Assembly (NCBI RefSeq): GCF_001562275.1
Contig: NZ_CP014304.1
Coordinates: forward strand, 4,650,001-4,714,000
Length of the DNA stretch: 64,000 nt
Origin: Hymenobacter sp. PAMC 26628
GTDB taxonomy: Bacteria; Bacteroidota; Bacteroidia; Cytophagales; Hymenobacteraceae
Direction of reading: 5' to 3'
Shown in pieces: positions 22,865 to 46,494 of this stretch (positions are counted from its first letter, which is position 1; each line of letters begins with the position of its first letter). Both the position numbers and the translations under genes were made by a program. The notes under the pieces were generated by a model. That model did not search any database and was not told where the DNA came from. It saw only the letters and a list, made by a program, of their open reading frames with translations.

Positions 22865-23186
22865 TTAGCTTACCTCCGGTACCAGCCCAGGCGCGGGAAG
22901 GGGCTCGTTCTCCGGCGCGTGGCGGCCCCACCACGTTGCCAGCAGGGAGAAGGTGGTGTTCATGCTGGGGCCGTTGACGGCCGGGGCAAGGCCCAGGGTG
23001 GCAATCCGACCCATTTGGGCGGCGATGCCCAAGGCTAGGCCGCCGTTCTGCATGCCGACTTCGATGGCAATGGTGCGGCTGTTGAGCCGGGACAAGCCAA
23101 ACAGGCGCCCGCCCCAGTAGCCCAGCAGCACGCCCACGGTCATGTGCAGGAACATGGCCGCCACCAGCGCCAGGGTTGCAGCATGT
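22865..23186 (-). pseudogene. C-terminal fragment of a bile acid:sodium symporter (BASS) family transporter
   Basis: The fragment reads ATLALVAAMFLHMTVGVLLG, LSRLNSRTIAIEVGMQNGGL and GPSMNTTFSLLATWWGR. RTxAIEVGMQN is the signature of the second half of BASS transporters. Only about the last 105 residues exist; the 5' part has been replaced by a piece of a DUF4861 gene in another frame. It cannot be translated from its own start and is dead. Confidence 0.8.
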
Positions 23187-23886: not shown

Positions 23887-24813
23887 CTATTTGGTCAGCC
23901 AGCCGTTGGCATCGAGCCAGTTGCGCAGGCGGTCGGGCCACTGGTCTTTGGTGGTTCTGTTGTTAAGGCCGAAGCCGTGGCTGCCCTTGGGGTAGAGGTG
24001 CATTTCGACCGGCACGCCGTGGCGCAGGCAGGCCTGGTAAAACACGAGGCTGTTGCCGACGCGTACCCACTCGTCGTTCTGGGCGTGCACCAGGAAGGTG
24101 GGCGGCGTCTGGGCCGTCACCTGCAACTCGTTGGAATACAGCCGCACCTGCTCCGCCGATGGGGTGGGCCCCAACAACTTATTGCGCGAGCCTTTGTGGG
24201 CCAGGCTGTCGGTGAAACTGATGACCGGGTAGAGCAGCACCAGAAACGCCGGCCGCACCGACTCCGGGCCGGGGCTGGCCCCCACGGGCTGGGCGAAATG
24301 CGTGCCCGCCGTGGCCGCCAGGTGGCCCCCAGCCGAAAAGCCCATCAGCCCAATCCGCTCGGGGTTAACACTATACTTGGCCGCTTGCTGGCGCACTAGG
24401 CGCAGGGCCTGCTGCGCGTCGAGCAGCGGCGCGATGGATTTGTCGGGCTGGCTCTGGTCATTGGGCAAGCGGTATTTAAGCACGAAGGCCGCCACGCCCA
24501 TCAGGTTGAGGCGCTTGGCCACATCGTTGCCTTCGCTATCAACGGCCAGGAAGCCGTAGCCGCCACCGGGGCAGATGATGACCGCCGTGCCGTTGGCCGT
24601 GGCGGGGTCGGGCAGGAAAACCGTCAGGTTGGGCTGCACCACGGTGGAAACGCGCACGCCGCCACCGGGCGGGGTGACGCTGACCTCCTGCAGCTCGCTG
24701 GGGTTCGAATCGGGAATGGTGCCGGTATAGAGCGGGATGACCTGCTGCGCGAGTCCTGGGCTCGAAGCCAGCAGCATGAAGCCGACCGCACGCAGGAACG
24801 AAAGTGGTTTCAT
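23887..24813 (-). CDS. Secreted alpha/beta hydrolase, acetyl-xylan-esterase-like
   Basis: The 308-residue product begins with a signal peptide (MKPLSFLRAVGFMLLASSPG-LAQ). The hydrolase core shows the oxyanion-hole motif CPGGGYGFLAVDSEGND, nucleophile elbow GLMGFSAGGHLA (Ser), acid HAQNDEWV (Asp) and the base GSHGFGLNN (His). This BD-FAE/Axe-type esterase family commonly removes acetyl or other acyl groups from plant polysaccharides in the periplasm. ATG at 24813 is preferred over upstream starts because it begins the signal peptide directly. It lies between the GH5-like gene and the DUF4861 remnant, in the same run. Confidence 0.85.
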   Translation of the reverse strand: MKPLSFLRAVGFMLLASSPGLAQQVIPLYTGTIPDSNPSELQEVSVTPPGGGVRVSTVVQPNLTVFLPDPATANGTAVIICPGGGYGFLAVDSEGNDVAKRLNLMGVAAFVLKYRLPNDQSQPDKSIAPLLDAQQALRLVRQQAAKYSVNPERIGLMGFSAGGHLAATAGTHFAQPVGASPGPESVRPAFLVLLYPVISFTDSLAHKGSRNKLLGPTPSAEQVRLYSNELQVTAQTPPTFLVHAQNDEWVRVGNSLVFYQACLRHGVPVEMHLYPKGSHGFGLNNRTTKDQWPDRLRNWLDANGWLTK

Positions 24814-24875
24814 AAAGCGGGGATTTCTGCGGGTTGCCAAAAAAGCCGGCGGCCCGGTAGTAGCATGAGGAAAAC

Positions 24876-26906
24876 CTAGTTTTTGCGAAACGTGAGGACC
24901 AGCGCGTCATTCGCTTTCACGGTGAAAGCGCTGCCCGCCGGCCGGGCCCCGTAGAGGCTACCCGCCAGCTTCCAGCCGGGTTGCGTGGTTGTGGCCGTCG
25001 AAATATCCGCGGGGCTGTAATTGATGAGCACGACCACCTTTTCCGTTTTGCTGGTCGCGTGCTCGGTCACGCCGATGAAAGGATTTTCCTGCGTCAGGAT
25101 GCGCTCTTTGAGCAGCGGCCGGGCTATTTCCTTGTAGATGGCTGCGTAGGCCGGCTGCCCTTGGTCGAACGCGCCGGTTTGGGTGGTCAGGTTCATTTCC
25201 AGCGGGAAGGTGAGCAGGTAGATGCTGCCCTTGCCGTAGGCGGATTTCAGCAATACCGGGTTGCCGTCCGCTTCTTTTGCCAGCACGGTAGCCTGCTTGG
25301 GGTCAATTTGCAGCTTGCGCTCGGCACTGGTGCTGAACCGGACGCTGTCGCCGAGCAGCTTGGCCGCGAAGGTCAGCGGGCCCCGGCGCTTGCTGTTGGT
25401 GGCCACTTCCACGCCCAGCGGCCCGTTGAAGGTGGGCAGGTAAGCATCGTCGAGCGACATATACAGCGTGGCCCCGGCCTTCACCTTGTCCAGGAGCTTA
25501 AACCAGTAGTCTTTGCGGAACGGGTCGATGCTTTTCAGCGAGGGCAGCAGGTAGAGCGGCGCGTCCTTCAGCTCCTGCCCGGCCTTCTGAAACTGAAAAT
25601 CAACCCCGGCCTGCTTGGCCAGCACGAAGCTGGTGTAGGCCACGGCCCAGGTGTCCTGGTTTTCGGTGAGGATGCACACGGCCTCGGTTTTGCGCGGCGG
25701 CAGCGTGCCGAAGGGCAGGTTTTGCACGAAGTGGCTGAAGGTTTTTAGCTCGCCCAGCACCGGCTTGGGGGTGCGGTCTTCCCGAATCAGGCCCAGCTCG
25801 GCCTCCACCGAGGCGTAGTTGTAGGGCGGGTAATTAAAGCTGAGCTGGTCGTAGGCGCACCACCAGAACGTGCCCTTGCAGTCGTGGGCCCAGTTCGAGA
25901 ACAGCGCCGTGCGGGCGAAGGCGATTTTTTCTTTTTCGCCGCCGGTCATGGGGCCCATCACGCCGGTTTCCTCCGTCAGGGCCGGCTTGCCGCCGATGTC
26001 GCCGTAGAGCCGGGTTTCGGCCGCCGCGTGCAGGATGGTCCGCATCGTGTTGATGCCGTCCTGGCCCGCGTACTTGGTCCAGAGCGAGTAGGGGTGCGCG
26101 GTCAGCACGTCGGTGGTAGCGGCCTGGTCGATGATGCGCCAGGGCGCATCGTCGGCCGCGCTCAGGCTGTGCATCCCCGACACCACCGGCCGGCTCGGGT
26201 CTTCGGCGCGGATGGCCCCGGAAATCATGGCCGACCACACATAGGCCTGGTAGTGGTTGTCCACCTTCTGCATCACGTTGCACTCGTTGCCGAAGTCCCA
26301 GGCCAGAATGGCGGGCTGGTTTTTGAGCCGGTGCACGAGCGTGGTCACAAGCTTCTGCTGCCAGGTCAGCGACTCCGGGTCGGTGAGGATGTCGCGGCCT
26401 TCCAGCGCCGGCGGCACGTAGAGCTGCCCGCTCATCCAGCCCGTCACCAGGCCCACTACCAGCTGGAGCTTGTACTTCTGTGCCAGCGCGGCCAGCGTTT
26501 CAAAGTGTTGAAGCTGCTCTTCGCTCACGCCGTTGCTGCCCACGCCGGTGGCCGGCAGCGGCTGCCCATCGGCAAACCCGACGTACTTCGGGGCCCCTTC
26601 GCCGGCGTAAATCTGGTGGATGGGCTGGAAATCAGGCCACAGCGGAAACACCCGCAGCACGGTAATGCCATTTTCGGAAAGCTGCTTGAAATCCTGCTCA
26701 ATCACCGCCGGCCGCCAGTCGCGCCACATATGCGTGCCGGCGTAGGAGGCCCAGTAGTTGCAGCCCACCGAAAACGCGCCGGGCTGCGTCAGGATGTTCG
26801 ACGGGGCGGGCGACTTTACCTGCGCCTGGCCGGGGTGGCCCAGCAGCGCCAGCAGCCCGCTCAATAGCAGTGGTTTATAGTAAGCCGCAAGATGACAACT
26901 GAACAT
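24876..26906 (-). CDS. Secreted clan GH-A glycosidase (GH5-like) with C-terminal accessory domains
   Basis: The 676-residue protein has a signal peptide and an (alpha/beta)8 domain over about residues 40-400. The acid/base appears in LAWDFGNECNVM (NE motif after strand 4) and the nucleophile in KPALTEETGVMG (E after strand 7), the clan GH-A pattern seen in GH5 mannanases and related families. From about 400 it continues with a beta-rich region resembling a glutamine-amidotransferase-like trimer domain (DAPLYLLPSLKSID, GATLYMSLDD) and a final beta sandwich. Substrate is not readable; beta-mannan or beta-galactoside are reasonable guesses. It follows the ADP-ribosylglycohydrolase gene by 31 bp. 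Confidence 0.75.
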   Translation of the reverse strand: MFSCHLAAYYKPLLLSGLLALLGHPGQAQVKSPAPSNILTQPGAFSVGCNYWASYAGTHMWRDWRPAVIEQDFKQLSENGITVLRVFPLWPDFQPIHQIYAGEGAPKYVGFADGQPLPATGVGSNGVSEEQLQHFETLAALAQKYKLQLVVGLVTGWMSGQLYVPPALEGRDILTDPESLTWQQKLVTTLVHRLKNQPAILAWDFGNECNVMQKVDNHYQAYVWSAMISGAIRAEDPSRPVVSGMHSLSAADDAPWRIIDQAATTDVLTAHPYSLWTKYAGQDGINTMRTILHAAAETRLYGDIGGKPALTEETGVMGPMTGGEKEKIAFARTALFSNWAHDCKGTFWWCAYDQLSFNYPPYNYASVEAELGLIREDRTPKPVLGELKTFSHFVQNLPFGTLPPRKTEAVCILTENQDTWAVAYTSFVLAKQAGVDFQFQKAGQELKDAPLYLLPSLKSIDPFRKDYWFKLLDKVKAGATLYMSLDDAYLPTFNGPLGVEVATNSKRRGPLTFAAKLLGDSVRFSTSAERKLQIDPKQATVLAKEADGNPVLLKSAYGKGSIYLLTFPLEMNLTTQTGAFDQGQPAYAAIYKEIARPLLKERILTQENPFIGVTEHATSKTEKVVVLINYSPADISTATTTQPGWKLAGSLYGARPAGSAFTVKANDALVLTFRKN

Positions 26907-26937: not shown

Positions 26938-28518
26938 TTAATGGGTGGCCGCTAGGGCCGACGTGGGCTGGTCCGAATACAGGAGGACTTCCTTCACCCG
27001 GCACTCGGAGGCGGGGGTGGGGTTCAGCAGTTTCAGGCGCACGGTGTGCTTGCCTTTGGGCAGCTGGTATTTCCAGGCCAGCTCGTAGCGGCGGGTGGTG
27101 AAATCGGTGGGCCACTCCACCGCTTCCAGCAGTTGATTGTCCACGTACACTTCGCCTTTGAAGACGTGGCCCGGCTGCGCGCCCGTGTGCGCGGCCTCGC
27201 CCTTTACCACGAAGCCAATGCCGTCAAAATCAAAGCTGTACTCATCTTTCAGCGGCTTGTTGACGACGAGCCGGCCCACGGGATAATGGCCCGCAAAGCT
27301 TTTTTCGAACTTCACCGGCGTGGGTTCCTGCACGCGAATAGTAACCTGCTCGCCGCGCACGCTGCCGCCGTTGCGCTGCACCACTTGCAGGGCGTGCCGC
27401 AGGCCGATGTCGTACACGTCGTTGAGCGAGGTGCTGGTGTATTTGAAGTCCAGCGGCTCGGCCTCAGCCAGGCCCTGCTTCCAGTAGGCGGGAATGTGGT
27501 CGTAGCCCAGGATGGTGCCCAGAATGCCGCCCGCCGACGACGGGTTGCAGTCGGCATCCTGCCCGCAGCGGGTCGATATTGCCATCGTTTTCGTGAAGTC
27601 GCCCTCGCCGTAGAGCAGGCCAATGACCACGTAGGCCGAATTGACGGTGGCGTCGATGTCTAGCGGCTGGAAGACGGCATCCGGGCAGCCGATGTCGGCG
27701 CTCCACTTCTTCTGCACCTCGAACCAGGTCTGTTTCCAGTCGTGGGGGTACTGCTCGTGCCAGCGAATCACGTCGCTTATGCACTGGTGGTAGTTGCTCT
27801 GCTTCGGGATGGTTTTCAGGGCTTCCCGCACGAGGTACGGGATGTCGGAGGAGGTGAAGGCCAGCGAGTACAGGGCCCCCAGGTACACGCCGCCGTACCA
27901 GCCGTCGCCGTAGTTCATGATGTGGCCCACTTTGTCGCTGATGGCCGAGGCCGCGTTGGGCATCCCCGGCGACATCAGCCCCGCGAAGTCGGCCTCAATC
28001 TGGTAGTCGATGCAGTCGGCGTGCGGGTTGTTGAGCCAGTGGCCCGATTGCGGCGGCGCCATACCGTGCAGAATGTTGTAGCGTCCGGCCTGGTTGGCGT
28101 GCCACAGGGCGTAGCCCGCGTGGGCAAAGGCATTGGCGAAGGACGCCGCCGGGGCATCGAGGCCTTCCTTTTCAATAACTTCCACGAACGTAAGGTCCAT
28201 GTACAGGTCGTCGTAAACGCCGGGATTTTCCACCATCGTTTTCTTGAGGTAGCCGTCGTACCACGGAATCGCTTGATAATCTTGAATCATCGTGCCGTTG
28301 TACTTGAACTCCACCGGCGCGCCGTAGGTCACGCCAATGGTTTGGCCGGCCCAGCCGCCCTTAATTTTGTTTTGCAGCGCCGCTTTGGTCAGCACGAGCG
28401 TCTTGGGGGCGGAAGTCGTTTTCGGGCGCGGTTTGGCCGGACTTTGGGCCGGCGCCAGGGCCGGCGCACACGCCAAGCCGCAGGCCAGGGCAACGCGGGG
28501 GAAGGAGTTTGTTCGCAT
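26938..28518 (-). CDS. Secreted ADP-ribosylglycohydrolase family protein with C-terminal beta domain
   Basis: The 526-residue protein starts with a signal peptide ending ALAPAQ. The helical ADP-ribosylglycohydrolase domain covers about residues 45-370: KIKGGWAGQTIGVTYGAPVE at the front, DDLYMDLTFVEVIE, and the metal-binding C-terminal motif STRCGQDADCNPSSAGGILG (Asp-x-Asp). A beta-sandwich domain of about 110 residues closes the protein. Cytosolic relatives remove ADP-ribose from proteins, but export points instead to cleaving extracellular ribosides. Similar proteins sit in the Bacteroides ribose-utilisation locus. Here a GRP-type permease is next upstream and a ribokinase two genes further. 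Confidence 0.85.
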   Translation of the reverse strand: MRTNSFPRVALACGLACAPALAPAQSPAKPRPKTTSAPKTLVLTKAALQNKIKGGWAGQTIGVTYGAPVEFKYNGTMIQDYQAIPWYDGYLKKTMVENPGVYDDLYMDLTFVEVIEKEGLDAPAASFANAFAHAGYALWHANQAGRYNILHGMAPPQSGHWLNNPHADCIDYQIEADFAGLMSPGMPNAASAISDKVGHIMNYGDGWYGGVYLGALYSLAFTSSDIPYLVREALKTIPKQSNYHQCISDVIRWHEQYPHDWKQTWFEVQKKWSADIGCPDAVFQPLDIDATVNSAYVVIGLLYGEGDFTKTMAISTRCGQDADCNPSSAGGILGTILGYDHIPAYWKQGLAEAEPLDFKYTSTSLNDVYDIGLRHALQVVQRNGGSVRGEQVTIRVQEPTPVKFEKSFAGHYPVGRLVVNKPLKDEYSFDFDGIGFVVKGEAAHTGAQPGHVFKGEVYVDNQLLEAVEWPTDFTTRRYELAWKYQLPKGKHTVRLKLLNPTPASECRVKEVLLYSDQPTSALAATH

Positions 28519-28593: not shown

Positions 28594-29637
28594 TTAGTGG
28601 GCGGCAATGATGAGGGCCAGTCCGCCGAGGTAGCACAGCAGCATCCCGTTCAGAATCAGTGGTGTACCGGACGGGGCGTTGCGGAATTCCTTCCAGATGA
28701 AAATGCCCCAGACGGCAGCCACCACCGTCGCGCCCTGCCCCAGCCCGTAGGAAATGGCCGGCCCGGCCTTGCCCGAGGCCAGAATGCTGAACGACATGCC
28801 CACGCACCAGATGGCTCCGCCCAACACGCCCATCAGGTGGCTGCGCCCGCTGCCCCGGAAGTAGTCGGCGTAGCTCACGGGCGTGCCGCTGAACGGCCGC
28901 CGCATCAGCAGGGTGTTGAACAGAAAGTTGCTGAGCAGCACGCCCCCGGCGAAGCAGGATACGGCCGAATAGGGACTCAGCTTGCCAGCCAGCGGCACGT
29001 TGAAATTTGGGAACATGGACGCCGCTACGTACTTGTAGAAGAAGCCCATCAGCAGGCCCGCCACCACCGCTAGTAGCAGCCCCCTGCCCGACACCTGCTG
29101 GGCCTTGGCCGCCGCCCGGCGGTAGGCAAAGGCGTTCAGCAAGATGGCCACCACCACCAGCCCCACGCCCAGAAACAACCGCGTGGAATCACCGAGCGGA
29201 TTGCCCAGGTAGTTGACCACCACCCCGCACACCAGCGCGATGCCGATGCCCACCGGAAACGCAACTGACATGCCCGCAATGGCAATGGCGGCCACCAGCA
29301 GGATATTAGCCGCGTTGAAAATGACGCCGCCCAGTACGGCCGAGCCGATGGAGGCGCCATCGGCCTGCCGCAGGTCGGTCAGGAAGCTGCGGCCGGCCTC
29401 CCCAGTGCTACCCAGCGTGAGGCCAAACACCAGGGCCGTAAGGACAATGCCCAGCACGTAGTCCCAGTAAAACAGCTCGAAGCGCCACTGCTGGGCGGCC
29501 AGTTTCTGGGTGTTGGCCCAGGAGCCCCAGCACAGCATCGTGACCAGGCAAAAACTGACCGCCGTGGCGTAGGTATTGATAATAAACACAGGGCGGATGG
29601 GGAAGGTGAAAAGGGATTTTGTGAGCAGCAGGCGCAC
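28594..29637 (-). CDS. GRP/RhaT-like sugar permease (DMT superfamily)
   Basis: The 347-residue protein has about ten hydrophobic helices and the layout of the glucose/ribose porter and rhamnose transporter group in the drug/metabolite superfamily. Recognisable pieces are FCLVTMLCWGSWANTQKLA in helix 1, FNAANILLVAAIAIAGMSVA, FPVGIGIALVCGVVVNYLGN and GVLGGAIWCVGMSFSILAS. These proteins import sugars such as ribose, glucose or rhamnose by cation symport. Placement between an exported ADP-ribosylglycohydrolase and a ribokinase points to ribose or a related furanose; this is inference from context. Confidence 0.75.
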   Translation of the reverse strand: MRLLLTKSLFTFPIRPVFIINTYATAVSFCLVTMLCWGSWANTQKLAAQQWRFELFYWDYVLGIVLTALVFGLTLGSTGEAGRSFLTDLRQADGASIGSAVLGGVIFNAANILLVAAIAIAGMSVAFPVGIGIALVCGVVVNYLGNPLGDSTRLFLGVGLVVVAILLNAFAYRRAAAKAQQVSGRGLLLAVVAGLLMGFFYKYVAASMFPNFNVPLAGKLSPYSAVSCFAGGVLLSNFLFNTLLMRRPFSGTPVSYADYFRGSGRSHLMGVLGGAIWCVGMSFSILASGKAGPAISYGLGQGATVVAAVWGIFIWKEFRNAPSGTPLILNGMLLCYLGGLALIIAAH

Positions 29638-29667: not shown

Positions 29668-32274
29668 TTACTTCAGGCAGCGAAAGCCTAGCGTACCGGC
29701 CCGGTCGTAGCCCGCTTTCATGATGAAGTACTTGCAATGAAAATCCAGCGGCTGGGGCCCACCGGGCGCATTGTTGGTGGCCTGGCCGGGGAAGTACCAG
29801 CGCGAGGTTTGCAGCTGCCAGCCCGCGCAGCCGCTGCGCAATGACACGAAGTGGTTGTGGCCGTCAAACCGCTCGCTCTCGGTCCACTCCCACACTTCGT
29901 TGTACACGAAATCGCGACCGTGGGCTTCGCCCGCGATTTGCCATTCCCACTCGGTGGGCAGCCGAAGGCCGGCCCAGGCGGCGTAGGCGCGGGCATCGTC
30001 GAGGCTCACGTACACCACCGGCTTGTTCTTCAGCGAGTCTGGGCAGGTGCGGCCCGGCCAGTGACGCAGGTAATCCACGGTGTCGGCGGGGGCGTAGCCA
30101 CTGGCTTGCACGAAGGCGGCGTATTCGCCGTTGGTCACGGCCCGTGGCATGATGTTGAAAGCGGGTACGGCCACTTTCGTGCGATGCACAATCAGCTCCT
30201 TGCCGAAGCTGTTTTTCTCCGTCCGGTAGTCGTTGTTGTTCTTGCCGTCGGCGTCCGGGAAGCTCTCGCTTTCCCGCTTCACGCCCTTCGTCACCAGGTT
30301 GTACTCGCCCGCTTTCACGGCCAGCAGGTTGCCGGGCGCGGGGCCGTGGCCGGGCCCAATGGCCGGCGGCGCTTTGAACGGTTTGGTCGACACGAACGCG
30401 ACGTGCGGGTCCGTAACCGGCAACGGCGTGGCGGTTTCCTGCCGCTGCTGGCGCAGCAGCGCCGCCACGGCGGCCGATGGCTGGTTTTTAAAACCGACCA
30501 CGCAGCCAAACCGCGCAATCGGCACCGTGACCTTTTGGCCGGTCACGGCCAGCTTTTGGCCGCTCCACAAGTCGTAGTAGTGCCAGGATTTGTCGCCCAC
30601 CGGCAGCGCCACCGTCCGCACGGCCCCCGCCGAATCGGTGATGATGTTCCAGATTTTACTGTCCTTATTCTCCCAGGAAGAAATGTGCACCTTGGCGTGG
30701 CCGCTGGGCAAGTATGGCTTCCAGGAATCCGAGTTATACAGCCCGGAAAACTGCTGGTAGATGGCGTTTATTTTCCGTAAATCCTGGCGGTCGCGCGCGT
30801 TCCAGGGGTTCACGTAGCCGAACACGTTTTCCCACACGATGAGGCCCTGCGCGTTTATCCAGCTGTAGGCCATATTGTTCTGCCGGTCGCGGGCGTTGCG
30901 GTTGATGGTCCACTGCATGTGCTCGGGAATCAGCCATTTCACCCGCGATACCCCGTTATTTTTGTATGGCTGGAGGGTCTGGCCGTAGGACGACGTGAGG
31001 GCGTTGTAGCCCTGAATGTTTTGCAGGCTCGGGTGGTGCTCGGTGCCCAGGCTGAAGCCCCGCTTCACCTTATCCAGTTCCGGCTGGAATTCGCCCGCGT
31101 CGAAATACACATCCAGAAACGCCCCGTCCACGTCAGTTTCCGCGATGAGGCGGGCCAGGTCCTGCTCGTCGGTGAGCGTGCTGGTGCGGCGGGTGTCAAT
31201 TTCCCACGAGGTATAGGGAAAATATACCTTCACCCCATTAGCGTGAAATTCCTTCACAATGGCCTTGAGCGCGGCGATGCCCCCGCCCGGCAGCGCCCGC
31301 AGGAAGTCCCTGCTGTTGCGCTGGTCGATGCCGATGTTGGGGTAGCTGTACCAGAACAGCACCGACTGAAATCCGCCGAACTCGCGCTTCATCTTGTCGC
31401 AGTATTTCTGCACGGTGAAGGTCTTTTTGTCGGCGTCCCAAAAGTCCTGGTCCCACAAATAAGCGTAGCCCGAAATGTAGTTTTTCTTCGTCCACTGCAT
31501 CTCCTTCCGGTCGTAGAGCTGGCGGTCCACAGCCGGCGATTTTGGGTAGAAAGAGGGACGCAGGGCGTCGTATTTCGCCTGATTCAGCTTGGTGGCGGGC
31601 ACGGAAAAGGTGAGGGCCCGGAGCTGGATTTGCGTTGCGGCGGCGCTGTTGCTCTCAAAGAGCACGGTGGGCTGCACCATCAGCTTCAGCGTGTCGAAGG
31701 CGGGCACGCGGAACTCCCGGTGCAGGCTCGTCCACGCCGTGGTGATGCGCACGCTGTCCACGTTGGCGGTTTTCACCACGGCGTGGCTGTTTTGCTGACC
31801 TATCTTAATGTAGATGAGCTTGATGCTGAAGCGGGTGTTGCCCCGGTCGTTTTTGGCCTGGCCGTTGAACACGATGCGGTCGCCGGGCCGCAGGCGCATA
31901 TCGTTCAGCACGCGCTTAAAATATAGGCGCACGCTCTGGCTCTTCACCACTTTCATATCCAGGTACAGTGCCGCCGTGTCGTTCAAATGGCCCCGCAGGT
32001 AGGTCTGGTACGCTTTCATGCCCTTGTACCAGCCGTTCCAGTCCTCGTTGAAAGCGGGGGGCGCGATGACCGTTTCGTTTTCCTTCACGCCGGCAAACGG
32101 CCGGTACTTCCAGGTGATGGGCACTCCCCAGTCCGACCGGCTCACGAACTCCGAAAACGGAAACACGAGCACGCCCTTGCCGGGGCCCGGCGGCGTTTGC
32201 GCCCACGTATTTCCGCCGATAAGCAGGAAGAGTATGGCGGCCAGCAACGGCAATTTTTTAACGATATATCCCAT
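29668..32274 (-). CDS. Secreted barrel-like domain fused to a SUMF1 (formylglycine-generating-enzyme-like) domain
   Basis: The 868-residue protein starts with a signal peptide ending NTWAQ. Residues about 40-230 form a beta-rich region. About 240-600 look like a glycosidase-type barrel (FGGFQSVLFWYSYPNIGID, HANGVKVYFPYTSWEIDT, VDGAFLDVYFDAGEF, WINAQGLIVWENVFGYVNPW). The last 200 residues are a SUMF1/FGE-sulfatase fold: PAFNIMPRAVTNGEYAAFVQ, VYVSLDDARAYAAWAGLRLP, TEWEWQ, EVWEWTES, GTLGFRCLK. SUMF1 folds activate sulfatases or bind sugar, but no sulfatase gene occurs here, and the active-site Cys pair of true FGE is not evident. Family of the barrel is not assigned. Start 32274 is chosen for its signal peptide. 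Confidence 0.7.
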   Translation of the reverse strand: MGYIVKKLPLLAAILFLLIGGNTWAQTPPGPGKGVLVFPFSEFVSRSDWGVPITWKYRPFAGVKENETVIAPPAFNEDWNGWYKGMKAYQTYLRGHLNDTAALYLDMKVVKSQSVRLYFKRVLNDMRLRPGDRIVFNGQAKNDRGNTRFSIKLIYIKIGQQNSHAVVKTANVDSVRITTAWTSLHREFRVPAFDTLKLMVQPTVLFESNSAAATQIQLRALTFSVPATKLNQAKYDALRPSFYPKSPAVDRQLYDRKEMQWTKKNYISGYAYLWDQDFWDADKKTFTVQKYCDKMKREFGGFQSVLFWYSYPNIGIDQRNSRDFLRALPGGGIAALKAIVKEFHANGVKVYFPYTSWEIDTRRTSTLTDEQDLARLIAETDVDGAFLDVYFDAGEFQPELDKVKRGFSLGTEHHPSLQNIQGYNALTSSYGQTLQPYKNNGVSRVKWLIPEHMQWTINRNARDRQNNMAYSWINAQGLIVWENVFGYVNPWNARDRQDLRKINAIYQQFSGLYNSDSWKPYLPSGHAKVHISSWENKDSKIWNIITDSAGAVRTVALPVGDKSWHYYDLWSGQKLAVTGQKVTVPIARFGCVVGFKNQPSAAVAALLRQQRQETATPLPVTDPHVAFVSTKPFKAPPAIGPGHGPAPGNLLAVKAGEYNLVTKGVKRESESFPDADGKNNNDYRTEKNSFGKELIVHRTKVAVPAFNIMPRAVTNGEYAAFVQASGYAPADTVDYLRHWPGRTCPDSLKNKPVVYVSLDDARAYAAWAGLRLPTEWEWQIAGEAHGRDFVYNEVWEWTESERFDGHNHFVSLRSGCAGWQLQTSRWYFPGQATNNAPGGPQPLDFHCKYFIMKAGYDRAGTLGFRCLK

Positions 32275-32355
32275 GATGAACTGACTAGCCGCCAGCGCCT
32301 TGTTGATAAATAAATCCCGGTTTGATTCGACGCGAATCAGGGGCATTTTTTCGCG

Positions 32356-33270
32356 TTACGCACTGACACCCAACAGCTCCCGTCGGTAGGGCACGGAGGC
32401 CTGCGCGCCCATGCGCGTGACGGAAATGGCCGCCGCCTGATTGGCGAATTCGACCGCCGATTCCAGCGGTATTCCCTCGGCCACCGCCACCGCCAGGGCC
32501 CCGTTGAACACGTCGCCGGCGGCGGTGGTATCCACGGCCCGCACGCGGGCCGTGGGCAGGAGCCGGGCCCCCGTTTCGGTGCAGAGGTAAGCGCCCTCCC
32601 CGCCGAGGGTGATGACCACGTTGGCCACGCCCTTTTCCCGCAGGAACCGGGCCGCCGCCCGCATCGACGCTTCGTCCGTAATCGGAATGCCGGTCAGGGT
32701 TTCGGCCTCCGCGCGGTTGGGCGTGAGTAGGAACAGCTGCCGCAGCAGCGCATCGGGTAGCGGCATGGCGGGGGCGGGGTTCAGGATTACCCGCTTGCCG
32801 TGGGCCGTGGCCAGGGCGGCGGCGGCCGTCACGGTGGCCAGTGGCACTTCCAGCTGCATCAGCACCACGGCGCAGCGGGCGAAGGCAGGCGCGGCCCGCG
32901 CCAGGTCTTCGGGGCTGAGAGTGCCGTTGGCACCGGGGGCCACCACGATGCTGTTTTCGCCCGCGGCGTCCACCGTAATCAGGGCCACGCCCGAGGGGTG
33001 GTCCGGGTCGGCCAGCAGATAGTCGGCCCCAATGCCTTCCTGCTGGAAGTGCTGCCGGGCCTGCTGGCCAAACAGGTCGTCGCCCAGCTTGGTGACGAAC
33101 GCGACCTGCCCGCCCAGGCGGGCCGCCGCCACGGCCTGATTGGCCCCCTTGCCGCCGGGATTCGTCAAAAACCGGCCGCCCAGCACCGTTTCGCCCGGCT
33201 GCGGGAACCGGTCGGTTTTAATCACCATGTCCGTGTTGGTACTGCCGATGACCAGAATATTAGGACTCAT
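32356..33270 (-). CDS. rbsK: Ribokinase
   Basis: The 304-residue PfkB-family kinase has both family signatures: GGKGANQAVAAARLGG near residue 39 and DTTAAGDVFNGALAVA near 245, the latter with the catalytic Asp and anion hole. NTDMVIKTDRFPQPGETVLG at the start is the ribokinase sugar-binding segment, and the C-terminal GAQASVPYR end is also typical. It phosphorylates D-ribose to ribose-5-phosphate in the cytoplasm. It sits between the SUMF1-fusion gene (82 bp downstream) and the heparinase II/III gene (55 bp upstream). Ribose specificity is based on overall similarity. Confidence 0.85.
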   Translation of the reverse strand: MSPNILVIGSTNTDMVIKTDRFPQPGETVLGGRFLTNPGGKGANQAVAAARLGGQVAFVTKLGDDLFGQQARQHFQQEGIGADYLLADPDHPSGVALITVDAAGENSIVVAPGANGTLSPEDLARAAPAFARCAVVLMQLEVPLATVTAAAALATAHGKRVILNPAPAMPLPDALLRQLFLLTPNRAEAETLTGIPITDEASMRAAARFLREKGVANVVITLGGEGAYLCTETGARLLPTARVRAVDTTAAGDVFNGALAVAVAEGIPLESAVEFANQAAAISVTRMGAQASVPYRRELLGVSA

Positions 33271-33324: not shown

Positions 33325-35238
33325 TTACTGCCCGGCCGAAGCGGACGTTTGCTGCGGCCACTGCGCCAGTGGCAACACCTTGCGCGGGGCCCCGCCGCCC
33401 GCACTGCCCGGCACCAGCAGCACCGAAAGGGGCACTTTCGCGTTGGCTGGCACCGTCACCTCAAAGCCCACCAGGGTGGTGCCGGGGTTGGGGGCGTCGT
33501 AGTCGTGCGGCCCCACCGTGGGCCAGGTTTTGAGGGTGATGGTGGCCGGCTCGGCCACTTGCAGCCGCAGCTTTTTGCCGTGGTTGGTCAGCTCGGCGGT
33601 GGTAGGATTCAGGATTTTCACGGTGGCGGGCGTGAGCATGGCCCAGCGCACGGTAGCGGCGGCCGAGCCACCGGTCAGCTCGTCGCGCACCACGGCCGCG
33701 CGCCCATCTACCAGGGCCACCCCGCGGTGGGCGGCGGCCAGGGCCGGGTACAGTGGGCTCAGGTCGGTGGTGGCGCTCTGGAAATCGGGCGCGGCCGAGT
33801 GGCCGGTGAGCACGGCGGCCCCTTTCGCGGCTTGCAGGCCGTTGTTGACGGTGAGGGTGCTGTGGGCGAAGTTGGTAAGCCGGAACACGTCCCAGCGCTG
33901 CTTGCCGAACGGGTCGATGCCCTTCGACTCCAGCGACTCGTAGTCCTGGGCTCCAAAATCCATGCTCCAACGCACGCCGTCGGCTTCGAAAACGAACGAG
34001 CCCACGTCCATGTGCCCGTGGCTGACGGCGGGCGAGCCGGCTTTAAGGCCCAGGTACAAGGCATTGGGGTCGGTCCAGGAGGTGCGCAGCAGCGCTACCG
34101 GGTTGGGGCCGCCGCCCACCCACTGCGTGGCGGCTGGGGCCGGAATATCGCGCAGGGCAATGCCGTGGCTCCACAGCATAAGGGCCGGCAACAGGCGGTT
34201 CTGGACGTGCTGGCTAGCGTCGGCGGCTTCCAACCGGGTGCGTTCTACCCACAGCAATGAAGGGTTTTTGAGCTTGGCGGCAAACCAGTACATGGCCGGC
34301 TGCGGCCCCCCAGCGGGCCAGGAATCGGAATACATGAAGGCGTTGCCCGACGGGCCCGTCATGTTGAGCAGGTAGCCCGGTGTTTTCAGAAAGCCGGGCT
34401 GCTGGCTCAGGCCGAAATCCTGGCCAAAGGCCTTCTCCAGCGCGCTGATGAGCAGCACGTTGAAGCTGGTGCCGTAGCCCCAGTAGCCGTAGCCTTCGGG
34501 ATAGGCACCGTCGGGGCCGTAGGCGCGCATGGGAATCACCACGGTTTCGATGGCGCGGTTGAGCACGGCGCGGGCCAGCACCGGCTGCTCGTCGTAGAGC
34601 GCCAGCGCGCCGAAGGCCATGCCGGCGTTGCACACCTGGTTCCAGTTGTTGGTTTTCGTCAGCCAGCCGTTGTTTTCGGGCAGCAGCGAGGGCTCCAGGC
34701 CTTTTTTCAGCAGGGCTTCGCGGACGGTGGCGCGGGTGGCTTCTGATAGGTCGTTGTAAAGCCAGTCGTAGCCCAGGGCCACGCCCGTGGTCATTTCGGC
34801 CACGTCGAGGAAGTGCGCGGGGTTCCAGTCGCTAAAGGCGGCCACGGCCAGCAGCTCCTGCTCGGCCCGCCGGCGGTACTTTTCCTGCCGCGTCATCCGC
34901 CAGGCGTAGGCCAGAAAAAACTCGCGGCGCAGGCACTCCCGCGACACGTCGAGCAGCCGCCGGCCTACCTTGATACGTTGGAGCACCGGCAAGCCCACCA
35001 TCCTGTCACATTCCGCGAGAATGCTTTGGTGGACCGCCCGCCAGGTTTGGTCTGCGGCAATGGTCTGCTGGATGGATTGCTCCTGACCGGCCAGCAGCAG
35101 CAGGCGCGGGTGGGCCGGCACCGGGGTGGTGGCCGCAATGGGGCCGGTTGAAGCCACGGCCGCCGGCTGCCCGCCGGCCGCCAGCCCCGTCAGGAGCAGC
35201 AGCAGCAGCAGGCTGCGGAATAGAACGGGTGGGTTCAT
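33325..35238 (-). CDS. Heparinase II/III family polysaccharide lyase
   Basis: The 637-residue secreted protein has a signal peptide with a long Leu run, an (alpha/alpha)n toroid over about residues 50-370 (NNGWLTKTNNWNQVCNAGMA, YGPDGAYPEGYGYWGYGTSF) and the heparinase II/III beta domain after it (SHGHMDVGSFVFEADGVRWS, MDFGAQDYES, FAHSTLTVN). The Asn, Tyr and His residues in NNWNQVCN, YPEGYGYWGYG and SHGHMDVG are those used by this lyase fold (PL12, PL15, PL17, PL21 relatives). It would cleave uronate-containing chains by beta-elimination, giving unsaturated ends for GH88 and the Kdu enzymes encoded here. The exact PL family cannot be assigned by eye. Confidence 0.82.
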   Translation of the reverse strand: MNPPVLFRSLLLLLLLTGLAAGGQPAAVASTGPIAATTPVPAHPRLLLLAGQEQSIQQTIAADQTWRAVHQSILAECDRMVGLPVLQRIKVGRRLLDVSRECLRREFFLAYAWRMTRQEKYRRRAEQELLAVAAFSDWNPAHFLDVAEMTTGVALGYDWLYNDLSEATRATVREALLKKGLEPSLLPENNGWLTKTNNWNQVCNAGMAFGALALYDEQPVLARAVLNRAIETVVIPMRAYGPDGAYPEGYGYWGYGTSFNVLLISALEKAFGQDFGLSQQPGFLKTPGYLLNMTGPSGNAFMYSDSWPAGGPQPAMYWFAAKLKNPSLLWVERTRLEAADASQHVQNRLLPALMLWSHGIALRDIPAPAATQWVGGGPNPVALLRTSWTDPNALYLGLKAGSPAVSHGHMDVGSFVFEADGVRWSMDFGAQDYESLESKGIDPFGKQRWDVFRLTNFAHSTLTVNNGLQAAKGAAVLTGHSAAPDFQSATTDLSPLYPALAAAHRGVALVDGRAAVVRDELTGGSAAATVRWAMLTPATVKILNPTTAELTNHGKKLRLQVAEPATITLKTWPTVGPHDYDAPNPGTTLVGFEVTVPANAKVPLSVLLVPGSAGGGAPRKVLPLAQWPQQTSASAGQ

Positions 35239-35311: not shown

Positions 35312-36352
35312 TTAGTCGGGCTGCTTGTTTTTCCAGAGCTTGAAATCGTCCCAGTAGATTTGCAGCGGCTTGCCCTGCGCCCGCATAAAAGCCACGACGT
35401 CCTTCGAGGTGTAGAGCTTCATTGGGTTGTAGTCGGTGAGGCCGTCGGGTCGGGGGTCGGTGGTGCTGTGCGTGTAGTTTTTCACGTCGAATACCACCTG
35501 CCGGGCCCCGCCTTCCGGGGTGATGGCCATGTAGAACCGGCCGGTTTGGGCATCGCCCTCTTTGAAATAGTAGTCCATCGTAAACCACTGGCCGATGGGC
35601 ACTTTCACGGGGTGCTGGTTGGCGTTCCACACCTCGATTTGCCCGGTGTTTTCCGCGTTTAGAATAAAGCACAAATCCCCTTCCTCCTTCACCGGCTTGC
35701 CGATGCCCAGCGTGATGCGGAAGCCGTATTTTGCCGTCGGCTCCCACCACGTGTTATTCCAGAACTCGGAGATGGTCAGCCACTTTATCTTGTCGGGGTA
35801 CTTGCGTAGGGCGCGAAAATCCTCCGGCAGGAAAACCCGCACCGATTGGTAAAACTCCCGGTAGCCGCTTTTGATGCCGTAGAGAGCAGTTTGCACGCGG
35901 GCTTTCACTTGGTGTGCGTCGGCTTCCCAGAAGTCGTTGAGCTGAAAGGCCAGCACATGGTTGCCGGGGTTGCCGGGCTCCGGGATGATGCGGGCCCAGC
36001 GTTTGGTGGAGTCGCCGCCGGTGTACTGAATCATGAACGTGCCGCCGTCGGGGCTGCGGTCGAGGTCGGCCACCCAGTCGTTTTTCCGACCGAGCGTATT
36101 ATCCACCCCGGTGATGACTTCCGGGGCGTAGCCGGGGTGGGCCGGGTTAGGAAGCTCCTTTGGGTCGGGGCCCACGCGGGAGGTGCCTTCAAAGCCGGAC
36201 TGAAAAACCAGGGTCGGTTGGGGCGCGGCTTTCTGGCCGGCCGGTGCCCGGCTGGTCAGCCGTTTCAGGCCCTGGGCGTGGCTGGCCGGGCCTGCCAGCA
36301 GCAGCGCCGTGCCCAGGAGCAAGGCCCCGGCATACGTGGTTGACTTGCTCAT
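35312..36352 (-). CDS. Secreted jelly-roll protein, candidate polysaccharide lyase
   Basis: The 346-residue product has a signal peptide ending SHAQ (start 36352 chosen for it). The rest is rich in beta strands and aromatics: VLAFQLNDFWEADAHQVKAR, KSGYREFYQSVRVFLPEDF, KYGFRITLGIGKPVKEEGDL, GQWFTMDYYFKEGD, LQIYWDDFKLWKN. This order of long strands and the closing YWDDFKLW resemble concanavalin-like lyases such as PL7, PL13, PL18 and PL20, but no catalytic signature was matched with certainty. It lies between a GH3 gene and a heparinase II/III gene in the same transcript, which fits a carbohydrate-active role. Confidence 0.6.
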   Translation of the reverse strand: MSKSTTYAGALLLGTALLLAGPASHAQGLKRLTSRAPAGQKAAPQPTLVFQSGFEGTSRVGPDPKELPNPAHPGYAPEVITGVDNTLGRKNDWVADLDRSPDGGTFMIQYTGGDSTKRWARIIPEPGNPGNHVLAFQLNDFWEADAHQVKARVQTALYGIKSGYREFYQSVRVFLPEDFRALRKYPDKIKWLTISEFWNNTWWEPTAKYGFRITLGIGKPVKEEGDLCFILNAENTGQIEVWNANQHPVKVPIGQWFTMDYYFKEGDAQTGRFYMAITPEGGARQVVFDVKNYTHSTTDPRPDGLTDYNPMKLYTSKDVVAFMRAQGKPLQIYWDDFKLWKNKQPD

Positions 36353-36389
36353 GCTGCGTTGATAGTCATATTTTAGGGCCCTCAACGGG

Positions 36390-39056
36390 CTACAGTTTCA
36401 AGGTTTTCGGCGCGCCCGTCAAGCGCAGGGGTTTGCTGAGGACCGACGTGGGGCCGGCCGCTTTGCCGGGTTGCCGGCCGCCCACGGCCACGGTGAAGGC
36501 ATCGGGGTTGAGCACCCGCTGGCCGGTGTCGTCGATAGTGGAAAAGTCGGATGGAGCAAGCCGGAACGATACCGTTTTAGCCTCGCCGGGCTTCAGCGAC
36601 ACGCGCTGGAAGCCCTTCAGGGTGCGGATTTCGGGCTGGTTCTTGCTGCTGGTGTTGGCCAGGTAGAGCTGCACGATTTCGTCGCCCGGGCGGGGGCCGG
36701 TGTTGCGCACGGTGGCCGTAACCGTGATGGGCTGGCCCAGGGCGGCGGTGGCGGGCAGTTGCAGGCCGGAATAGGCAAACGTGGTGTAGCTCAGCCCGTA
36801 GCCGAACTGGTAGAGTGGCTGGCCGGTGAAGTAGCGGTAGGTGCGGCCGGCCATGTCGTAGCTATCAAAAGATGGCAGCTGGGTCTCGGAGGTGTAGAAG
36901 GTGATGGGCAGGCGGCCGGAGGGGTTCACGGCCCCGGTGAGCACGTCGGCCAGGGCGTTGCCGGCCTGCTGCCCGCCGTACCAGGCCTCCACGATGGCCG
37001 GCAGGTGGGCGTCTTCCCAGTTCACGGCCACGGCACTGCCATTCAGCAACACCAGCACCACGGGCTTGCCCAGGGCCTGCACGGCCTTTATCAGCGCCAA
37101 TTGCGTGTCGGGCAGCTTGAGCTTGGTGCGGTCGCCCTTGTTGAAGCCGTCCACCACGAAATTCTTCATCTCCTCCCCTTCCAGGTGCGAGGAAAGGCCC
37201 ATGCACAGCACCACGGCATCGGCTTTTTTGCAAATTTCCAGGGCCTTGGCTTGCAAATTCTGGTTGGGCATTTCCCATTTCAGCTGCACCAGCGGCGCGG
37301 GCTTGGTGTTGGCGAAGCGCAGCTCCAGCTTGTATGTTTTGCCGGCTTCCAGCACAAAGGGCTTGTACTTGAGGTCGGGCTCGTGCTCGTTGTTGATGCG
37401 GGCCACCAGGCTGTCGTTGAATCGCAACTCGCACTGCTCGTAGCCGTGCAGGCCCAGACTGTAGCGACCCGAGGTGGGCGGCTTGAGGTAGCCGGTCCAT
37501 TTGGCGCTGAAGTTTTCGCGGTCGAAATTCGCCGCCGGCAGGTTGTTTATCCAGTAGAAGTCCACCGTTTTGTCCACGCGCCGCAGGGCGGGCGGGCCGG
37601 CGAATTTGGCGTTGAGGTAGTACTCGGCGCGGAGCCCGTGCTCCGTGGCGGCGGCCGTGGTGAAAAGATAGTCCGTGGGCACTACGTCCAGCGACGGTAT
37701 TTCGGCGACGTGGCGGCTGCCCTTGGCATACAGGATTTTGGTGCCCGGCAGGCGGTTGCGCAGGCCCGCCAGCGGCGTGACGACGTGGGAAGGGAAGCCG
37801 TGGTAGTTGGCCAGCGGCACTTCCTCGTCGTCGGCGTTGGGGCCGATGACGGCCAGGGTTTTGATGGTTTTGGCCAGCGGCAGCGTGTGGTTCTGGTTCT
37901 TAAGCAGCACGATGGACTTCCGGGCCGTTTCCAGCGCCAGTTGGATGTGGGCGGTCGATTCCACCGTGGCGTAGGGGATTTTGGTGTAGGGGTTGCCGGC
38001 GGGGTCATCAAAAAAGCCCAGCTTGAAGCGGGCCGTGAACAGGCGCTTCAGCGCCACGTCCAGCTCGGCTTCGCTCACCAGCTTCTGCGCCAGGGCTTTG
38101 TCGAGCGCGTTAAACGCTTCGCCGCACTCCAAATCGGAGCCCGCCCGGATGGCCAGGGCGGCGGCCTGCTCGGGGGTTTGCACTACCTCGTGCGCCCCTT
38201 TTTCGTAGAAAAGCGTCACCGCGCCGCAGTCCGTCACGATGAAGCCGTTGAAGCCCCACTGCTGGCGCAGCAGGTGGGTGAGCAGGAAGTTGCTGCCGCA
38301 GCAGGGCTCGCCCCGGAAGCGGTTGTAGGCGCACATCACCGAGTAGGCCTTGGCGTCCTGGATGCAGGTTTTGAAGGCCGGCGTGTAGGTCTGGTACAGG
38401 TCCCGGTCGCTCACGCGGGCGTCGAAGTGGCCGCGCGTGGCCTCGGGGCCGCTGTGCACGGCGAAGTGCTTCACGGTGGCAATGGCCTTGTAGTACTTGG
38501 GGTTGTCGCCCTGAATGCCTTGGACAAACGAGCCGGCCATCCGACCCGTCAGATAAGGGTCTTCGCCGTAGGTTTCCATGCCCCGGCCCCAGCGCGGGTC
38601 GCGGAAGATGTTGATGTTGGGCGTCCAGAAGGTGAGGCCCTGGTAAATGCCGCGCTGGCCGTGGCGCGCAAACTCCTCGTACTTGGCCCGGCCTTCGTCG
38701 GAAATGGCCGTGGCTACGCGCCCGGCCAGGGCCGGGTCCCAGGTGGCGGCCAAGGCAATGCTTTGCGGGAAGACGGTGGCCCTGCCGGCCCGCGCCACGC
38801 CGTGCAGGCACTCGTTCCACCAGTTATAAGCCGGCACTTTCAGTCCGGCGCTGTCGATGGCGGTGCCGGTGTACATCAATAGCTTAATTTTCTGATTGAG
38901 CGTGAGCCGGCCCACCAAATCGGCCACCCGCGCCTCGGTACTCAGGGAGGCGTCGAGGTATTTTGGTGTCTCAGCGGGCGGGCGGAAGGCCGCGAAGGCC
39001 AGCCCGCTCAGCACGAGTACGATGCCGATAAAAAAGTTAAGGGGATTGGATTTCAT
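36390..39056 (-). CDS. Secreted GH3 beta-glycosidase with PA14 insertion
   Basis: The 888-residue enzyme has an N-terminal membrane-type signal (FFIGIVLVLSGLAFAAF), the GH3 barrel with nucleophile in GFIVTDCGAV (Asp), the ligand-binding KHF motif in ATVKHFAVHS, a PA14 domain inserted in the C-terminal domain (RAEYYLNAKFAGPPALR, PPTSGRYSLGLHGYEQCEL) and a fibronectin-III-like end (VRNTGPRPGDEIVQLYLAN). The layout RVSDRDLYQTYTPAFKTCIQ and GRGMETYGEDPYLTG fits beta-xylosidase/beta-glucosidase members. PA14-containing GH3 enzymes often act on substituted oligosaccharides. It removes non-reducing beta-linked sugars in the periplasm. In-frame ATG at 39074 is an alternative start. Confidence 0.9.
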   Translation of the reverse strand: MKSNPLNFFIGIVLVLSGLAFAAFRPPAETPKYLDASLSTEARVADLVGRLTLNQKIKLLMYTGTAIDSAGLKVPAYNWWNECLHGVARAGRATVFPQSIALAATWDPALAGRVATAISDEGRAKYEEFARHGQRGIYQGLTFWTPNINIFRDPRWGRGMETYGEDPYLTGRMAGSFVQGIQGDNPKYYKAIATVKHFAVHSGPEATRGHFDARVSDRDLYQTYTPAFKTCIQDAKAYSVMCAYNRFRGEPCCGSNFLLTHLLRQQWGFNGFIVTDCGAVTLFYEKGAHEVVQTPEQAAALAIRAGSDLECGEAFNALDKALAQKLVSEAELDVALKRLFTARFKLGFFDDPAGNPYTKIPYATVESTAHIQLALETARKSIVLLKNQNHTLPLAKTIKTLAVIGPNADDEEVPLANYHGFPSHVVTPLAGLRNRLPGTKILYAKGSRHVAEIPSLDVVPTDYLFTTAAATEHGLRAEYYLNAKFAGPPALRRVDKTVDFYWINNLPAANFDRENFSAKWTGYLKPPTSGRYSLGLHGYEQCELRFNDSLVARINNEHEPDLKYKPFVLEAGKTYKLELRFANTKPAPLVQLKWEMPNQNLQAKALEICKKADAVVLCMGLSSHLEGEEMKNFVVDGFNKGDRTKLKLPDTQLALIKAVQALGKPVVLVLLNGSAVAVNWEDAHLPAIVEAWYGGQQAGNALADVLTGAVNPSGRLPITFYTSETQLPSFDSYDMAGRTYRYFTGQPLYQFGYGLSYTTFAYSGLQLPATAALGQPITVTATVRNTGPRPGDEIVQLYLANTSSKNQPEIRTLKGFQRVSLKPGEAKTVSFRLAPSDFSTIDDTGQRVLNPDAFTVAVGGRQPGKAAGPTSVLSKPLRLTGAPKTLKL

Positions 39057-39088
39057 GCGAGTCGTTTTCAGCAAATAGAAGCCGCTTT

Positions 39089-40300
39089 TTAGCTGTGCTT
39101 GCCCGCCGGGGCGGGTCGTAGCACCGTCACTTCCAGCGGCGCGGCCAGGCGGCGCGCTTCGGCGGCCAAGTAGCTTTCCCAGTCGCCCACGTTGTGGAAG
39201 CGGCCGGCTTTAGTCCAGCCGTAGCCGGCGTAGTAGGTGAGGTGCGCGGCGGGTTTGAGGCGCACGAACAGGTGGCTTTGCTCCTTGCGGGTGGTGCGGT
39301 AGGTCCACCAGTTTTGCACCTGGCCGGGGGCCATCACCAGGCCGGTGCCCAGCTCCGAATCGTCGATGGGCTCCCAGTGGCGGAACCAGCCAGCGGCTGG
39401 CCGACCGGCCACGGTGCCTTTCTGCTCGTGCAGCGTGATGCCGACGGTTAAGGGGGGTAGGGCCCCGTGGTCAACGGCCACAAACACGTCGTAGCGGCTC
39501 AGCTGCTGGCCCGCGTCGAGGGTGATGCGGGTGCGTTGCGTCAGCTGCTGGCCGGCGGCCGACCAGGGCGCGTAGGTCAGCTCAAACACGGTGCGGAGGG
39601 GTCCCGTGGCCAGGGTTTGGTAGCGGATGAAGTTTTTGGACACGGCCAGGGTCGAGTCCCGGTCATTCCACACGCCCAGGCCGCCGCAGCCGCGGCTGTC
39701 GCCCACGTGGTAGGGGTCGTAGCCTTCGCCGCGGTCGTGGTGGTAGAATGTCGGGTCCTTCGCGTAGCCCGCGTACCATTTGTCGATGATGGAATACGGC
39801 ACGCGCTTGAGCCAGCAGTCCATCCCGCTGGTGAGGGTACCGTCCTTCGAGCCGGCTTCGGTGAGCTGCTGGGCTTTCGGCCCGTAGGTGCGGAAGGCCA
39901 CCCGGTCGTTTTCCCAGGCGTAGTCGTCGATGCGCTCGGGCACGAAGCGGGAATAGGCCACTGCGGGCGCAGGTTGCGCCACTTGCCCGGCCGGGGCTAG
40001 CTCGATGGCCAGCCGCCGCCGCTCCTGGGGCCCCAGCGTCACCTGGCACAGCAGCTCGTCCCAGACATGGTCCCCGTCGTTATCGACCAACTGGGACACC
40101 AGCAGTTTCCCGCTAACCGCGTCGCGCACCCGCAGGCGCTCGGGGGTGGCCGTGAGGTGCAAGTGGCGCAGGTCCAGCGCCACGGTGGTGGCCGGACGGC
40201 TTTCGGCCAGCGGGTTGCGCACCTGCACGGTGAGCACCGGGGCCGCCGGGGCACTAAGCTGGACCGCAAGCCAACAAGGGAGCAGCATCGGAATTATCAT
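39089..40300 (-). CDS. DUF4861 family secreted protein
   Basis: The 403-residue protein has a short signal region and a full DUF4861 domain: VSQLVDNDGDHVWDELLCQV, ENDRVAFRTYGPKAQQL, SGMDCWLKRVPYSIIDKWYA, HHDRGEGYDPYHVGDSRGCG and TYYAGYGWTKAGRFHNVGDW. DUF4861 proteins are common in Bacteroidota loci for pectin, ulvan and other uronate glycans and are thought to be carbohydrate-active, though the reaction is not settled. The intact gene follows susD and precedes GH3 by 32 bp. A truncated paralogue lies at 23.2-23.8 kb. Confidence 0.85.
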   Translation of the reverse strand: MIIPMLLPCWLAVQLSAPAAPVLTVQVRNPLAESRPATTVALDLRHLHLTATPERLRVRDAVSGKLLVSQLVDNDGDHVWDELLCQVTLGPQERRRLAIELAPAGQVAQPAPAVAYSRFVPERIDDYAWENDRVAFRTYGPKAQQLTEAGSKDGTLTSGMDCWLKRVPYSIIDKWYAGYAKDPTFYHHDRGEGYDPYHVGDSRGCGGLGVWNDRDSTLAVSKNFIRYQTLATGPLRTVFELTYAPWSAAGQQLTQRTRITLDAGQQLSRYDVFVAVDHGALPPLTVGITLHEQKGTVAGRPAAGWFRHWEPIDDSELGTGLVMAPGQVQNWWTYRTTRKEQSHLFVRLKPAAHLTYYAGYGWTKAGRFHNVGDWESYLAAEARRLAAPLEVTVLRPAPAGKHS

Positions 40301-46437: not shown

Positions 46438-46494
46438 GGGGGCGAGTGGGCGCAAATGAGTGGGTTGAGCAATGCGAAAGGAAACGGCCGGTGC

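Follow-up and report, generated by a model that had tools for sequence, protein, structure and literature searches.

The question raised by this locus is which reaction, and on which sugar, would be carried out by a protein that joins a glycosidase-like barrel to a SUMF1 domain within a SusCD gene cluster. The DNA is a stretch of 64,000 nucleotides from Hymenobacter sp. PAMC 26628 (contig NZ_CP014304.1), referred to as a whole as the window. To our knowledge, enzymes that free ribose from larger molecules are poorly defined, although ribose loci of Bacteroidota are known. The explanation favored here, which is given an even chance, is that of a secreted retaining glycosidase from a family outside Pfam and NCBIfam that carries a noncatalytic SUMF1 module, and the family branch of the window would feed a ribose-type pathway.

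The barrel–SUMF1 gene is carried by a genome of 5.37 Mb. Its open frame (29668–32346, minus strand) corresponds to 892 amino acids, and the start at 32274 gives a protein of 868 amino acids. The parts of this protein are listed in Table 1 together with the genes of the cluster. The SUMF1 domain is located at the C terminus, where PF03781 (FGE-sulfatase) exceeds its cut-off in the Pfam scan over residues 692 to 804 (E 4.2e-20). No other Pfam family matches the protein at E up to 0.1, and the NCBIfam matches are all far below cut-off and lie in the SUMF1 part. The fusion proposed in an earlier sequence-only reading is thereby confirmed, with an N-terminal part devoid of Pfam or NCBIfam matches, and both barrel motifs quoted in that reading were located (residues 382 and 481). 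It had further described the N-terminal 600 residues as one new barrel-type enzyme. Herein, the barrel type is retained, and the single unit gives way to what are, judging from the models, probably three parts—a sandwich at approximately 33 to 227, a barrel from approximately 254, and a β-domain reaching to approximately 595.

Table 1. Parts of the barrel–SUMF1 protein and genes of the surrounding SusCD cluster, in positions of the window
Feature	Positions	Strand	Basis
Putative signal peptide, residues 1–25 (...NTWAQ)	32200..32274	−	Translation read by eye
β-sandwich, residues 33–227, like CBM4/16/22/29 and MAM	31594..32178	−	AlphaFold2 model, VIA-align
Glycosidase-like (β/α) barrel, residues 254–515	30730..31515	−	53-protein alignment, low-confidence model
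D388 codon, candidate nucleophile	31111..31113	−	Conservation; weak alpha-amylase LDT alignment, E 0.035
E412 codon, candidate acid/base	31039..31041	−	Conservation; same weak alpha-amylase alignment
C-terminal β-domain of barrel part, residues 515–595	30490..30732	−	VIA-align to GH13 9qf3
SUMF1-like domain without FGE Cys pair, residues 650–868	29671..30327	−	PF03781, FGE-type references aligned
Esterase	23887..24840	−	PF20434 over cut-off; closest NCBIfam PaeX, AxeA1, both below cut-offs
GH2/GH5-like protein	24876..26906	−	PF02836 over cut-off
ADP-ribosylglycohydrolase homologue	26938..28518	−	PF03747 E 1.6e-36
Sugar permease, ureide permease/Sugar_transport kind	28594..29637	−	PF07168 and PF06800 over cut-off
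Ribokinase	32356..33270	−	TIGR02152 370.6 bits, cut-off 299.65
Heparinase II/III-like protein	33325..35238	−	PF07940 over cut-off
357-aa protein, no Pfam/NCBIfam match	35312..36385	−	Pfam and NCBIfam scans
GH3 with PA14	36390..39074	−	Pfam
DUF4861, BT_3233 family polysaccharide utilization protein	39089..40300	−	Pfam and NCBIfam over cut-off
SusD	40434..41888	−	PF07980
SusC-type TonB-dependent receptor	41907..45152	−	PF07715, PF13715
GH88-like	45244..46455	−	PF07470 just over cut-off
Second PfkB sugar kinase	46495..47409	−	PF00294; NCBIfam matches all below cut-off
Hybrid two-component regulator, periplasmic sugar-binding sensor	47670..50639	−	Peripla_BP_4, HisKA, HATPase, response regulator, AraC HTH

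The barrel belongs to a family with members in several groups of genomes. Searching sampled genomes with a barrel profile identified members in 15 of 395 genomes drawn from the phylum and in 6 of 395 drawn from the class. A larger profile yielded 26 of 294 for one family, 4 of 195 for another class, and 13 of 291 for the order; these draws overlap. The resulting set comprises 53 barrel proteins from 51 loci; one genome (G514), whose copy is broken across two small contigs, was omitted. The nearest named relative is that of Hymenobacter terricola, with 91% identity across residues 1 to 778. Its copy lies on two contigs (L027 and L030), which were not joined; it was counted once and contains only the start of SUMF1. 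Relatives with the whole architecture occur in Pedobacter frigiditerrae (59%) and in a Salinivirgaceae MAG (58%); the locus of the latter (L029:6315–14169) holds three barrel–SUMF1 paralogues in a row. A scan of viral contigs yielded 31 stretches but no relative.

The link to SUMF1 is a trait of this family, which goes beyond the single fusion described earlier. The two are fused in 47 of the 53 barrel proteins and encoded by adjacent genes in four, and the remaining two (L109 and L126) are cut by a contig end. The split version is confined to one genus (L059, L060, L135, and L136), where the SUMF1 gene lies directly upstream of the barrel gene; at L059:7581–10698, for instance, the two are separate neighboring genes. 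When 19 members were scanned with Pfam, 17 matched PF03781, and every other family matched at most one member (best E 0.015). The two members lacking PF03781 are explained by the split, since these are L059 and L060, whose neighboring genes contain the domain. In one clade member (L052:8169–10949), a frame break parts SUMF1 from the barrel ORF, which may reflect sequencing error or decay. Among the matches listed from the open-licence literature, there was no paper on a SUMF1–glycosidase fusion or on the barrel family.

The substrate can be approached from the gene neighborhood, which the earlier reading had overlooked. In the window, the ribokinase gene lies 81 bases upstream of the barrel–SUMF1 gene and the sugar permease gene 30 bases downstream, followed by that of the ADP-ribosylglycohydrolase homologue. 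The 357-residue ORF of the cluster moves with the locus, since it is 87% identical to an ORF just upstream of the ribokinase of Hymenobacter terricola (L027). A nucleoside hydrolase was found neither among the window ORFs that were scanned with Pfam nor, with a one-seed profile, among window ORFs of at least 120 amino acids, and this counts against the ribose reading. DUF4861 genes lie at both ends of the cluster (39089–40300 and 23140–23787, minus strand), and the latter covers only model positions 2 to 167 of 380. Also on the minus strand, 18018–21356 encodes a 1112-residue DUF5107 and TPR protein, adjoined by an MFS sugar transporter at 21370–22767. Past the regulator end, on the opposite strand, are found a GH92 gene (55749–58133, plus strand) and a LacI-type regulator (52847–53878).

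A tree of the 53 barrels, which contains long branches, resolves an 11-member clade including the window protein, the 4-member split-gene clade, and a third clade of 38 members. Ribose-type genes—herein a permease, an ADP-ribosylglycohydrolase, a nucleoside hydrolase, or a kinase of the ribokinase type—were sought within 10 kb of each barrel; 14 of the 15 members of the first two clades have at least one, compared with 1 of the 38 members of the third clade. The corresponding Fisher p value of 9e-11 treats related loci as independent and is illustrative, since the rows are related and the seeds of the neighbor profiles came from these same clades. Mapped onto the tree, the ribose label requires three changes versus a mean of 13.2 after shuffling, and none of 500 shuffles was as low. 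The exceptions are L124, a clade member with no ribose-type gene nearby, and L113, the sole positive of the third clade, which has a permease. L124 counts against the ribose reading.

The locus of L058 contains a ribokinase over the cut-off, a permease, an ADP-ribosylglycohydrolase, and SusD, that of Pedobacter a PfkB kinase and RhaT, and that of L029 a PfkB kinase, a permease, a nucleoside hydrolase, and GH28. The kinases of L028, L029, and L059 score 264 to 290, below the ribokinase cut-off of 299.65, which counts against a ribose reading. Because its branch sits beside genes of ribose use, the window member may free ribose-type sugars from larger molecules. The SusCD locus resembles one for ribose utilization and therefore provides a testable substrate class.

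The same neighborhoods bear on the strongest alternative, in which the protein is a glycosidase for a nonribose substrate, for instance a pectin-like polymer or one rich in uronic acids, and the ribose genes serve a minor component or are ancestral baggage. The GH88-like, heparinase II/III-like, and esterase genes of the window cluster point to a mixed or uronic polymer and thus speak against ribose, and DUF4861 and GH3 in the window, as well as GH28 in L029, fit the same alternative. So does the third clade, the neighbors of which are different ones: GH127 near 11 of its 38 members, an MGH1-like GH near nine, GalT and aldose epimerase near three each, and DUF2961 (which we take to be GH172) near two. 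None of the neighbor genes sought was near 20 of them. By contrast, ribokinase-type or permease genes recur beside the window clade in several bacterial families, whereas the other enzymes vary. Taken together, a nonribose substrate is considered rather unlikely, and a glycosidase feeding a ribose-type pathway is retained as the preferred reading. That the substrates of the 38-member clade contain furanoses as well is a guess, based on the minority with GH127 or DUF2961.

The fold and the conserved acids of the barrel bear on whether it is a hydrolase. The full-length AlphaFold2 model, computed from four sequences, is poor (mean pLDDT 47.4), and the barrel crop, modeled from six, is of low confidence (pLDDT 56.7, pTM 0.44). 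In the full-length model, block pLDDT ranges from 63 to 85 across most of residues 100 to 230, with lower values before them. Residues 33 to 227 were aligned by VIA-align with sandwiches of CBM4/16/22/29 and MAM (Z 9.4–11.3, rmsd 2.6–4.7, 100–141 residues aligned). For the barrel crop, Foldseek returned a GH13 amylase first, with an E-value of 5.1e-10 and a probability of 1.00, yet with a TM of 0.26 and an rmsd of 18; the best 50 rows are mostly GH13, with GH27/36 and GH30 further down. The whole barrel reached a Z of at most 8.8 at an rmsd of 13 to 16 in VIA-align, near the stated background of the tool, and so at most the general barrel arrangement is supported. The C-terminal β-part gave a better fit, with GH13 9qf3 (Z 7.5, rmsd 3.0, 106 residues; model 251–368, equivalent to protein 478–595). 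These low-confidence models suggest an architecture of CBM-like sandwich, GH13/27/36-like barrel, and β-domain.

Four acidic positions are near-invariant in the 53-protein alignment. Position 317 is D in 52 of 53 barrels, with a gap in the remaining row; 52 barrels have an acid, D or E, at position 358; position 388 is D in 52; and position 412 is E in all 53, although L058 has Q there in a 19-row alignment and E in the 53-row one. D388 and E412 are 24 residues apart. In a PDB profile search, D388 falls onto the LDT of an alpha-amylase and E412 onto a Glu, in the weak alignment of Table 1. The barrel profile has no credible sequence match in the PDB (best: a designed protein, E 2.1e-4, approximately 30 residues). 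The earlier reading of a new barrel-type protein is supported in that Pfam, NCBIfam, and the PDB give no credible sequence match. Hence, the barrel is a candidate new glycosidase family, where new denotes a family lacking a Pfam or NCBIfam model.

The near-invariance of four acids across 53 diverged proteins is the pattern of a catalytic pocket, and this is what tells against a second alternative—namely, that the barrel binds sugar or performs nonhydrolytic chemistry (as a lyase, isomerase, or pseudo-enzyme) in a surface capture protein. It draws on the low-confidence fold, on the two binding-like domains that flank the barrel, and on one paralogue with N at position 388. The latter (L029:6315–8471) belongs to a ribose-linked locus and also counts against the main reading; it is the first paralogue of its row and, judging from this residue, perhaps a pseudo-enzyme. 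A capture protein is regarded as improbable, and hydrolysis remains the favored function of the barrel.

The SUMF1 domain retains VTN...LPTEWEW as its core and GFRC at its end. The FGE active-site Cys pair (GGSFxC...C) is absent from all 17 family SUMF1 domains that were aligned with five FGE-type references, and a pattern search for the pair gave 0 positives among the 47 fused proteins. Eight proteins of related genomes do contain a GGSFLC...C pair, and five of these served as the references. In the 868-residue protein, the region of the pair reads SGCAGWQLQTSRWYF, and C816 is consequently near, yet not at, the Cys-pair position. The description of a SUMF1 fold without an evident catalytic pair can thus be extended to the family. 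The absence of a sulfatase from the 64 kb likewise holds for the whole genome, within the reach of PF00884. This model has two matches there with an E-value of 0.001 or less; neither has the C/S-x-P/A-x-R sulfatase signature, and both look, by eye, like phosphatase-type members. PF03781 occurs in four places of the genome, the barrel–SUMF1 gene and three others, which by appearance we take to be two GldK/GldJ-type proteins and one of EgtB/SenA type.

A role in sulfatase maturation is rejected on the missing Cys pair and on the absence of the signature among the PF00884 matches of the genome. The wider proposal that SUMF1 is catalytic in a noncanonical manner—in sulfatase maturation or oxidatively, as in EgtB and SenA, with the barrel as its partner—is highly improbable. 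It draws on SenA and EgtB matches to a shared core motif, far below cut-off; against it, the FGE-type pair, a second Pfam domain such as DinB, and a sulfatase-signature protein among the PF00884 matches of the genome are all missing. The family retains the SUMF1 fold as a near-obligate module lacking the FGE Cys pair, and annotation of PF03781 matches of this kind as sulfatase-modifying enzymes is unwarranted.

In the preferred reading, the barrel would catalyze retaining hydrolysis with D388 as the nucleophile and E412 as the acid/base, and the site for the sugar would be shaped by D317 and D/E358. The SUMF1 module, which has presumably lost formylglycine chemistry, and the CBM-like part probably hold the substrate or hold the fold together. 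The earlier interpretation is partly supported overall, and the carbohydrate binding that it proposed for SUMF1 is a possible role. The sugar released in the window branch would probably be ribose or a related pentofuranose, which may then be imported by the adjacent permease and phosphorylated by the adjacent ribokinase. A bolder version is doubtful: the window clade would comprise the first dedicated secreted O-ribofuranosidases, the wider family would be furanosidases, the 38-member clade would act on other furanoses, and SUMF1 would be a new carbohydrate-binding module derived from an oxidase fold and inseparable from the barrel. If true, such O-ribofuranosidases would free ribose from polysaccharides or glycoconjugates and thereby feed ribose PULs.

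Compared with known systems, the barrel has GH13, GH27, and GH36 among its first Foldseek matches, with GH27/36 listed by VIA-align as well, and D388 and E412 align weakly with the amylase LDT and E. For the GH13 arrangement of a TIM barrel with Asp on strand 4 and Glu on strand 5, the indications are the low-confidence model and this weak alignment. GH13 enzymes have an Arg two positions ahead of their nucleophile. With D388 taken as the nucleophile, none of the 53 barrels has this Arg; the residue there is F, V, I, or N. Likewise, the Pfam Alpha-amylase family is not among the 11 families matched by any of 19 members at E up to 1. On these two differences, GH13 membership is rejected. A profile–profile comparison scored 2.53% over 32 columns for GH13 (30 sequences) and 1.60% for a GH3 control (30 sequences); in hhalign, a GH36 profile of nine sequences scored 0.08%, within its shuffles. 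The highest values among 10 column-shuffled targets each were 0.24% (GH13), 0.26% (GH3), and 1.04% (GH36). Because both GH13 and the GH3 control exceed their own shuffles, this comparison does not discriminate.

With FGE-type SUMF1 enzymes, the Hymenobacter domain shares the PF03781 match, the core motif, and the GFRC end, and it differs in the Cys pair and in a genome whose PF00884 proteins lack the signature. The SUMF1 module has a C-type-lectin-type fold. Another parallel is SUMF2, the human FGE paralogue, which has the same fold, is not known to have FGE activity, and was retrieved as a PDB match of the Hymenobacter protein (1y4j). SUMF2 is a standalone protein, whereas the Hymenobacter domain is joined to a barrel.

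The locus itself compares with the rus PUL of Bacteroides thetaiotaomicron, which reportedly contains a nucleoside hydrolase, ribokinases, and an ADP-ribosylglycohydrolase, the last of which also has a homologue in the Hymenobacter locus. The rus PUL (BT2803–2809, with the permease RusT and RusR) is required for ribose use (PMC12596196). Both loci have SusCD and a ribokinase, together with a sugar permease and their own regulator; the Hymenobacter ribokinase exceeds the TIGR02152 cut-off. The Hymenobacter permease belongs to a broad family (PF07168 and PF06800), and its likeness to RusT is tentative. As differences, the Hymenobacter locus adds many polysaccharide enzymes and the barrel–SUMF1 protein, and no nucleoside hydrolase was found in the window, whereas the L029 locus has one. 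With its near-invariant acids and its recurrent position beside ribokinase-type kinases and permeases, the barrel family is a direct candidate for the release of ribose.
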